This document shows, piece after piece, positions 51,922 through 54,528 of a DNA stretch of 64,000 nt. The stretch covers positions 124,001 through 188,000 of the forward strand of contig JAJFGB010000009.1 of assembly GCA_021776335.1 (NCBI GenBank), given 5' to 3'. The stretch comes from Hyphococcus sp. Its GTDB lineage: Bacteria; Pseudomonadota; Alphaproteobacteria; Caulobacterales; Parvularculaceae. Every line of letters begins with the position of its first letter. The first letter of the stretch is position 1. The position numbers and the translations under genes are program-made. Under the pieces are notes generated by a model, which saw only the letters and a list, made by a program, of their open reading frames with translations, was not told the DNA's origin and did no database searches.

Positions 51922-53032
51922 ATGCGCGCCGAGATGGAAGCGATCGTCAATGAGACCAAGCAGTCGTTGGAACTGCTGAGGAGGCGTCTTTGACTGGGAT
52001 AAAGCGCAAAGAGAACTCGACGAATTAAACGCCCGCGCGGAAGACCCGAAACTTTGGGATGACCCAGGCGCGGCGCAGGCGCTGATGCAAAAGCGCAATG
52101 CGCTCGAGGCGCAGATGAACGCCATTGGTGGGACCGCGCAAGAGCTGGAAGAACTCGTTGAACTAGCGGAACTTGCCGCCGAAGAACGCGACGAAGCTAG
52201 CCTTGATGAAACGCAGGAGATGATAACAGCGCTGCGTGATCGCGCCGCCAAAGCCGAAATCGAGGCGCTTTTATCGGGCGAAGCCGACAGCAATGATTGT
52301 TTTGTCGAAATCCATCCGGGCGCCGGCGGCACGGAATCCAACGATTGGGCGGCGATGCTATTGCGCATGTATGTGCGCTGGGCGCAGCAGCGCGGCTATA
52401 AAGTCGATATCATCGAAGAACAGGCGGGTGACGAGGCGGGGATCAAATCCGCAACCATCCAGGTCAAAGGCCACAATGCCTATGGCTGGTTAAAGACCGA
52501 ATCCGGCGTTCACCGTCTGGTGCGCATTTCGCCATTCGATTCAAATGCCCGCCGCCACACGTCATTTGCGTCCGCCTGGATATATCCAGTGGTCGACGAC
52601 AATATCGAAATCGATATCAACGAAAGCGATTGCCGCATTGATACGTTTCGCGCATCAGGCGCTGGCGGCCAGCACGTCAACACAACTGATTCAGCAGTGC
52701 GCATTACGCACCTACCGACTGGATTTGTCGTGCAGTGTCAAAATGAACGTTCGCAACATAAAAACCGCGCCACTGCATGGACCATGCTGCGCGCGCGGCT
52801 CTATGAAGCGGAATTGCAAAAACGCGAAGAAGCCGCCGCCGCCACTGAAGCCGGTAAATCTGATATTGGCTGGGGGCATCAGATTCGGTCCTATGTGTTG
52901 CAGCCCTATCAGATGGTGAAAGATTTGCGCACGCAGGTTGAAAGTTCCGATCCAGACAAAGTGCTCGACGGCGATCTGGACAAGTTCATGAGCGCCTCGC
53001 TGGCGCAACGTGTGACCGGTGAGGGGGCGTAG
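51922..53032 (+). CDS. prfB: Peptide chain release factor 2 (programmed +1 frameshift)
   Basis: The first 23 codons run from ATG 51922 to CTT (51988-51990), followed in frame by TGA (51991-51993). A +1 shift continues GAC TGG GAT from 51992 and yields a 369-residue RF2. The frameshift signal is AGGAGG (51979-51984), three bases, then CTT TGA C, the same spacing as in E. coli prfB. The stop-codon recognition tripeptide SPF is in VRISPFDSN, and the catalytic GGQ is in [12 protein letters not shown]2 reads UGA and UAA; low RF2 favours the shift, so the gene self-regulates. Confidence 0.96.
51979..51994 (+). promoter_or_regulatory. prfB: prfB programmed frameshift site
   Basis: AGGAGGCGTCTTTGAC: an internal Shine-Dalgarno-like AGGAGG, a three-base spacer, and the slippery CTT followed by the in-frame UGA plus C. 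All elements known to drive +1 frameshifting in bacterial RF2 genes are present. Confidence 0.95.
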
Positions 53033-53044
53033 GCGGAGGAAACA

Positions 53045-54184
53045 ATGAGGTTTGATCGGCGGCAATTTGTAACTGCGGGCGCTAGCGCTCTTGTCTCCGG
53101 CTGCTCTTTAACCGGCGCCGCCGTTCGTCCGAATTTTGCGCAGTCGGCGCCGCTCGCGCCGTTAAATCTTTCGCCTGCAGATGTCGTGCGCGTAACGGTC
53201 TGCACGCGCCCTTTTCGAACCGCCGGACCGCGACTTGAGGCGGAAACGATCAACGACAAGTTGATCGTCCATAATTACGGTCATGGCGGATCAGGCTGGT
53301 CGCTCTCCTGGGGATGCGCTGCAGAAGCTGCGGCGCTCGCCCTGACCGATGGAGCGCAGCGTGTCGCCGTGGTCGGCGCCGGTGTTATGGGGCTGACAAC
53401 CGCTCTTCGGCTTGCCGAGAGTGGCGTCGCCGTGACGATCTATGCGAAAGAATTCCCGGCGGAGACGCGATCAGCGCGGGCGACAGGCGTCTGGTCGCCG
53501 AGCAGTCGTATTGGTCTTGCCGGATCTGTTGAGAGCAATTTCGAAGGTCGTTGGCAGGGATGGGCGCGCGCCTCTTACGCAACCCACCAGCATTTTGTCG
53601 GCGCGGTCGGCGAGCCGGTGGAATATCTGCCTCAATATGCGCTTTCCAGCGGATTAAATTCATCGCGAACGCCTGCGGAACACGACTATCTTCATCTCGA
53701 TGGTTTGGTGCGCAACATGGTTCCGCCTTTGTCGACACTCACTGCTAACACGCATCCTTTTCCGGTCGCGCGCGCCCGTAGCTGGCAGAGCATGACTTTC
53801 AATGTTGCGAGCTATATGAGCCGGCTGACGCGGGATTTTTTATTACGCGGCGGGCGAATGGTTCGCCGTGATTTTCCGGATCGTGCTGCAATCCTCGCTT
53901 TGCCGGAAACTGTTATTGTCAATTGTACCGGCTATGGCGCCAAAAGCCTTTGGGGCGACGAGAATCTTATGCCCGTCCGCGGACAGATCAACTGGATGGC
54001 GCCACAGCCGCGCGCACGCTACGGCCTTTATTACCGCAATGTCTTTGCGTTATCCCGTCGCGACGGGGTAATTGTTCAGTATTTGGGCCCGAATAATGAC
54101 TGGGGGCTCGGTGATGCAAGCGAAACCGCAGATCGGGAAGAGACGTCGAGTGCGCTCGCAACGCTTGCGCCGCTATTTTCCTGA
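53045..54184 (+). CDS. Circularly permuted D-amino-acid oxidase-like flavoprotein, exported
   Basis: Predicted 379-residue FAD oxidoreductase. The N-terminus combines a twin-arginine signal (DRRQFVTAG) with a lipobox-like LVSGC (Cys20). Residues 48-67 (VRVTVCTRPFRTAGPRLE...) and 74-91 (IVHNYGHGGSGWSLSWG) match the segment that closes ordinary D-amino-acid oxidases. The Rossmann motif VAVVGAGVMGLTTALRLAE (107-125), normally first, comes after. The chain then follows the usual order to NCTGYGAKSLWGDENLMPVRGQI and ends at the GPNNDWG...LAPLF region. Substrate is unknown. It has GGAGG upstream and follows prfB after 12 bases. Confidence 0.85.
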   Translation: MRFDRRQFVTAGASALVSGCSLTGAAVRPNFAQSAPLAPLNLSPADVVRVTVCTRPFRTAGPRLEAETINDKLIVHNYGHGGSGWSLSWGCAAEAAALALTDGAQRVAVVGAGVMGLTTALRLAESGVAVTIYAKEFPAETRSARATGVWSPSSRIGLAGSVESNFEGRWQGWARASYATHQHFVGAVGEPVEYLPQYALSSGLNSSRTPAEHDYLHLDGLVRNMVPPLSTLTANTHPFPVARARSWQSMTFNVASYMSRLTRDFLLRGGRMVRRDFPDRAAILALPETVIVNCTGYGAKSLWGDENLMPVRGQINWMAPQPRARYGLYYRNVFALSRRDGVIVQYLGPNNDWGLGDASETADREETSSALATLAPLFS

Positions 54185-54222: not shown

Positions 54223-54528
54223 TTATTTCTTCGCTCGCCTGTCTTCAAACGCAGCCATTTGCTCTGGCGTCGCCGGGGTTTGGTATTTTTCTTTCCATTC
54301 TACATACGGCATGCCGTAAATGCGCGTTCGTGCTTCGTCTTTCGTCATCTCGACGCCGTGTTCAGCCGCCGCTTCGCCCCGCCAGTTTGCGAGGCAGTTG
54401 CGGCAAAAGTCGGCGAGGATCATCAGATCGATATTTTGAACTTCTTTATGTTTGTCGAGATGAGAGAGCAGCCGACGGAACGTCGCCGCATCGAGTTTGT
54501 CGCGCATCTCGTCGCTAAGGTCAGTCAT
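54223..54528 (-). CDS. DUF1244 family protein
   Basis: Predicted 101-residue cytoplasmic protein of the DUF1244 (SMc04008-like) family, common in alphaproteobacteria and of unknown function. Recognisable strings are LSHLDKHKEVQNIDLMILADFCRNCLANWR and IYGMPYVEWKEKYQ. Two Cys lie close together (FCRNC), a possible metal site. AAGGA precedes the ATG. Confidence 0.9.
   Translation of the reverse strand: MTDLSDEMRDKLDAATFRRLLSHLDKHKEVQNIDLMILADFCRNCLANWRGEAAAEHGVEMTKDEARTRIYGMPYVEWKEKYQTPATPEQMAAFEDRRAKK

Follow-up and report, generated by a model that had tools for sequence, protein, structure and literature searches.

A D-amino-acid oxidase-like protein of circularly permuted chain order with a Tat/lipoprotein-type signal, from a widespread bacterial family

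Introduction

D-Amino-acid oxidase (DAAO) is among the best studied flavoenzymes and has been engineered for biosensors, antibiotic chemistry and therapy. The closest described relatives of the protein analysed here are DAAO and D-aspartate oxidase (human DAAO, 2du8; Rasamsonia DAAO, 7ct4; human D-aspartate oxidase, 6rkf; Pfam PF01266), with which it shares the fold over residues 105–379, the GxGxxG motif, the carboxylate-binding arginine and the HNYGHGG loop. In contrast to these enzymes, it has a permuted chain order, carries a Tat/lipobox-type signal and lacks the active-site lid with its Tyr224, and in its clade Tyr228 is replaced. The nearest canonical sequences in our tree are actinobacterial DAAOs (Nocardia, Streptomyces and Tsukamurella plasmid genes). 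These have an HNYGHGG-type loop and an RP.R strand in common with the permuted proteins, but in those that we checked the loop is C-terminal and the Rossmann strand stands at the start of the chain. Two other groups are more distant: DadA belongs to the same Pfam superfamily and acts on D-amino acids, but differs in family and order and gives only a weak Rossmann match, and glycine oxidase ThiO and other GR2 flavoenzymes share the Rossmann/GR2 fold with weak matches, but have canonical order and a structural Z of 15–16 versus 20 for DAAO.

The protein is encoded in a 64,000-nucleotide stretch of a Hyphococcus sp. contig (the window; Table 1), and a reading of its sequence alone had proposed that it is a circularly permuted, exported DAAO. 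Our own reading, to which we assign a probability of roughly 0.6, is that it is a natural circular permutant of the DAAO fold and a Tat-exported lipoprotein that would oxidise the alpha-amine of a small carboxylate outside the cytoplasm.

Table 1. Coordinates of the permuted gene, its signals and its upstream neighbour within the window
Feature	Position	Strand	Evidence
Gene for circularly permuted DAAO-like FAD protein, 379 aa	53045..54184	+	ORF; Pfam DAO 6.5e-28; orthologues 58–68% identical
Shine-Dalgarno-like GGAGG	53035..53039	+	Sequence; 5 nt 5′ of ATG
Twin arginine R5-R6, Tat motif RRQFV	53057..53062	+	Sequence and relatives
Lipobox VSGC, candidate acylated Cys20	53093..53104	+	Sequence and relatives
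Moved segment, residues 42–99 (DAAO ~271–329)	53168..53341	+	phmmer, profile, rotation scan, shuffles, AlphaFold2 model
Arg55, equivalent of human DAAO carboxylate-binding Arg283	53207..53209	+	Invariant in 99 aligned rows
HNYGHGG FAD loop, residues 76–82	53270..53290	+	Sequence, alignment
Rossmann-first core, residues 105–379 (DAAO 1–268)	53357..54181	+	VIA-align
Dinucleotide-binding GxGxxG, residues 111–116	53375..53392	+	Sequence, alignment
prfB (main-part frame), upstream gene, context only	52085..53032	+	Pfam PCRF, RF-1

The segment that ends canonical DAAOs precedes the Rossmann motif

Profile searches place the protein in the DAAO superfamily and at the same time break it into pieces. 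Pfam DAO aligns residues 106–374 with positions 1–293 of its 353, plus a second, separate stretch. NCBIfam models give Rossmann matches only, all below threshold; among them the DadA model PRK00711 reaches 25.9 bits against a cut-off of 383, over the Rossmann part alone, which places the protein outside DadA. The Rossmann-first linear order of the DAAO family is not found here, and the segment that closes canonical chains, comprising the substrate-Arg strand, a beta hairpin, the FAD loop and a helix, lies N-terminal to the Rossmann GxGxxG. In phmmer searches of PDB chains, residues 42–98 match 315–371 of DAAO 7ct4 and residues 105–319 match 24–243 of the same chain; alignments of the same inverted order were obtained with 6rkf, 8hy5 and other DAAOs, and are sharpened by a 78-member profile of the family. 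Neither phmmer nor this profile found a solved structure of a permuted DAAO among PDB sequences.

We measured the rearrangement against a canonical-order profile built from six DAAOs (human, Tsukamurella, Nocardia, two from Streptomyces, and Burkholderia). The natural chain scores 104 bits over profile positions 2–190. When the chain, freed of its signal peptide, is opened at residue 104 and its original ends are linked, the score rises to 165 bits in a single alignment over positions 2–314 of 322, whereas none of 100 versions with a shuffled moved segment exceeds 105.6 bits. A scan of all cut points has its maximum at residue 104, and in 95 of 98 relatives the maximum likewise falls between HNYGHGG and GxGxxG, with a median gain of 48 bits; these scans were run without the signal peptide, because leaving it in split the alignment and made the scan uninformative. 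The Rossmann-to-end part stops at residue 379, equivalent to about residue 268 of DAAO, which is where the moved segment would begin. The sequence-only reading had described exactly this arrangement, with a displaced C-terminal segment followed by the rest in normal order, and it stands; only the bounds that it gave to the segment (48–91) were too narrow, since residues 42–99 take in the start of the strand and the whole of the helix. A short linker thus joins the old termini, and the break that created the new termini falls after the last core helix and before the substrate-Arg strand.

The predicted structure is consistent with a DAAO fold

An AlphaFold2 model made with 78 sequences has a pLDDT of 92 and a pTM of 0.87, with residues 41–100 at pLDDT 95–99, and the moved segment is predicted to form three strands (47–58, 63–69 and 72–78) and a helix (81–99). 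The 33 best Foldseek matches of the model are all DAAO or D-aspartate oxidase. The superposition that the sequence-only reading had called for succeeds for the core: VIA-align places residues 105–379 of the model on DAAO 1–268 with Z of 19–21 at 2.7–3.0 Å over ~248 residues. Because this is a sequential aligner, it is silent on the place of residues 42–99, which we assign from the sequence alignments.

Two further observations bear on how the segment might sit in the fold. Modelled alone, it falls to a low-confidence pLDDT of 69, which is what packing against the core would lead one to expect. Its nine best structural matches are still DAAO or D-aspartate oxidase, at weak E-values and partly driven by sequence. 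Covarying pairs (92–119, 94–122 and 96–123) point weakly to packing of the moved helix against the first Rossmann helix; the signal is weak because there are only ~79 effective sequences. Overall, the sequences establish the permuted order and its conservation, and the predicted structure strongly supports them.

A conserved twin-arginine and lipobox signal

The N-terminus reads RRQFV...VSGC, in which a twin arginine is followed by a hydrophobic stretch and a lipobox cysteine, the pattern of a Tat lipoprotein signal. Both elements had been noticed before, and we find them conserved in relatives: 73 of 77 have RR near the N-terminus, 49 of 77 (about two thirds) have a lipobox-like site as well, and 93 of 98 have RRx followed by two hydrophobic-type residues. 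At 0.001, the Pfam TAT_signal model recognises only 2 of 78 members, so the case for export rests mainly on motif conservation. These motifs make a Tat/lipoprotein export signal a well supported prediction. In the literature searched, which leaves most subscription papers outside, we found no Tat-exported DAAO; an Asaia secretome includes a released ‘D-amino acid oxidase’ (PMC12502724) that we could not connect with the permuted family.

The permuted order defines a large bacterial family

What had been treated as the oddity of a single gene belongs to a large family. Some 100 aligned relatives from Alphaproteobacteria, Acidobacteriota, Opitutaceae, Xanthomonadales and one actinomycete share the rearrangement, and the homologue search proposed earlier finds HNYGHGG N-terminal to GxGxxG in all 98 aligned relatives. 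A full-length permuted homologue is present in 16 genomes besides the window’s own (60 relatives examined), in 15 of 299 Pseudomonadota genomes (a sample that includes the window’s own) and in 8 of 99 Acidobacteriota genomes; two further Acidobacteriota genomes match residues 105–375 only, the pattern expected of canonical forms. Genome contigs hold at least 584 motif-bearing stretches that encode a relative; the best 80 of these were retrieved, and the remainder may include canonical DAAOs. The records examined annotate relatives only as ‘FAD-dependent oxidoreductase’, so an extracytoplasmic amine-oxidising activity may have been overlooked. In the literature searched, which omits most subscription papers, neither a permuted DAAO nor a permuted FAD oxidase turned up, and such an absence is no proof; the family is apparently both widespread among bacteria and undescribed.

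An assembly artefact, chimera or decayed gene deserves almost no weight as an explanation. One relative, in Mesorhizobium, is indeed frameshifted, but the order is identical in every aligned relative across independent genomes, which rules out an artefact or frame error, and the reading frames are intact with a sensible start site. The frameshifted copy, from Mesorhizobium onobrychidis, is annotated as two genes; we considered and rejected a natural division into two genes at the old termini, as the lesion is a one-base frameshift inside GxGxxG and not at the junction.

In an unrooted tree of rotated sequences, in which the human and Burkholderia branches are long, the six canonical proteins all lie on one side of one branch (93/87); therefore, a single permutation event suffices. 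We take the permuted order to be the derived state, because other GR2 enzymes align in canonical order. The permuted proteins form three groups: A, the window’s clade, on a long stem of 1.64 changes per column; B, a second exported group that is not resolved as a single clade; and C, whose members have no signal peptide and come from rhizobial plasmids and Nonomuraea. We put at about even the odds that a large and so far unrecognised bacterial branch of the DAAO superfamily goes back to one ancient circular permutation, and that its main clade is an enzyme exported by Tat as a lipoprotein, with a remodelled active site and a new extracytoplasmic substrate. A natural permutant with its new termini beside the substrate-Arg strand would mean that the DAAO fold tolerates permutation, and it offers a ready scaffold. 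The family is widespread in environmental bacteria, and the role of an exported DAAO-like enzyme becomes testable.

A retained carboxylate site and a remodelled pocket

The FAD- and carboxylate-binding residues of DAAO are kept. GxGxxG is invariant in relatives, the DAO signature loop (PROSITE pattern) is present at residues 74–92 (IVHNYGHGGSGWSLSWGCA), and in an alignment with human DAAO the equivalents of R283 (the invariant R55), R286, R290 and HNYGHGG are invariant or nearly so. Since these arginines and the loop are retained, a carboxylate should still bind over the FAD.

The rest of the pocket differs. The lid with Tyr224 is deleted throughout the permuted family. The equivalent of Tyr228 remains Tyr in groups B and C but is mostly Ser, Asn, Gly or Leu in group A and Phe in the window protein, which thus has neither active-site tyrosine of the human enzyme. 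Group A also has conserved residues of its own (R142, R145, R155, N253 and Q345), the last an invariant Gln at the position of human Gly239. The name D-amino-acid oxidase, given on sequence alone, therefore suits the fold, the FAD loop and the substrate arginine but not the remainder of the active site, and plain DAAO specificity is doubtful because the lid tyrosine is absent in all members and the second is lost in the window’s clade.

The loss of Tyr224, the replacement of Tyr228 and the long stem of group A mean that its substrate may differ from that of DAAO and may not be a D-amino acid. The same fold and permutation would then serve an N-substituted, peptide-terminal or non-amino-acid carboxylate in place of a free D-amino acid. 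The change of Gly239 to Gln, the clade-specific Arg and Asn residues, and peptidase and acylase genes near relatives in acetic acid bacteria also point this way; however, the carboxylate-binding Arg55 is invariant, and one tyrosine position varies among bacterial DAAOs too (PMC9844085). We regard such a substrate as a substantial possibility, short of even odds.

In our main reading, an exported permutant acting on an alpha-amine, the former C-terminal piece, in which the start of the helix faces the flavin, comes first and passes through the short linker into the Rossmann strand, and the new C-terminus marks the point where the old chain entered the moved piece. The protein would fold and bind FAD in the cytoplasm, leave it through Tat in the folded state and be anchored by a lipid on Cys20. 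Outside the cytoplasm, it would act on a small carboxylate, most probably a D-amino acid or a derivative of one, and oxidise its alpha-amine to an imine that would hydrolyse to a 2-oxo acid and ammonia, with O2 or a periplasmic cytochrome c as putative electron acceptor.

Gene neighbourhoods

Group C gives the clearest hint that amine-to-2-oxo-acid chemistry survives in the permuted fold. In four of four loci (Rhizobium, Bradyrhizobium, Mesorhizobium and Nonomuraea), the gene lies directly 5′ of a 2-oxo-acid decarboxylase gene. The product of the latter is a ThDP enzyme whose closest matches, under the NCBIfam cut-offs, are indolepyruvate/phenylpyruvate and pyruvate decarboxylases. The pair is most naturally read as a route in which a 2-oxo acid is formed by oxidation and then decarboxylated. 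The pair in Rhizobium and Bradyrhizobium is also preceded by a gene for an FAD-binding oxidase related to BagG/FevA2, and the set may be a small secondary-metabolite pathway.

The window’s clade has no conserved neighbours among the 64 and 67 scanned on its two sides. In erythrobacters, a cysteine-synthase-like PALP gene precedes the oxidase gene, and in part of the sister clade the gene lies near purA. In the group A acetic acid bacteria Kozakia, Gluconobacter and Acetobacter, neighbours include genes for DadA-like proteins (Kozakia and Gluconobacter), S12 hydrolases, penicillin acylase, S9/S15 peptidases, a TonB receptor and cytochrome c, the set varying among the three. Such clusters would suit the uptake and breakdown of a peptide or D-amino-acid compound, and those of Gluconobacter and Kozakia may form a periplasmic D-amino-acid-peptide route. 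The c-type cytochrome gene, directly 3′ in Kozakia and Acetobacter, together with the predicted export to the periplasm, raises the question of whether the enzyme is a dehydrogenase, its FAD reoxidised by periplasmic cytochrome c and not by O2. We think this less likely than not, because nearly all other loci have no adjacent cytochrome gene and the closest fold matches are oxidases.

The suggestion in the sequence-only reading of a role in peptidoglycan metabolism found no support. The protein would in that case strip D-amino acids freed from the cell’s own or foreign peptidoglycan, in keeping with its predicted export, with the S12 hydrolases near some relatives and with the position of its gene downstream of those for an amidase, PBP1A and prfB, all in one direction and the last at a distance of 12 bp. 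However, this amiC–mrcA–prfB stretch is a housekeeping one and is absent around the relatives examined, even within the genus, and we consider the role improbable. prfB itself (51922–53032, + strand) shows the programmed +1 frameshift typical of release factor 2 genes: AGGAGG is followed by CTTTGA, with the slippery site at 51988, and the reading frame continues beyond it. Downstream of the oxidase gene lies a convergent gene (54223–54528, − strand) that encodes a DUF1244 protein (Pfam PF06844).
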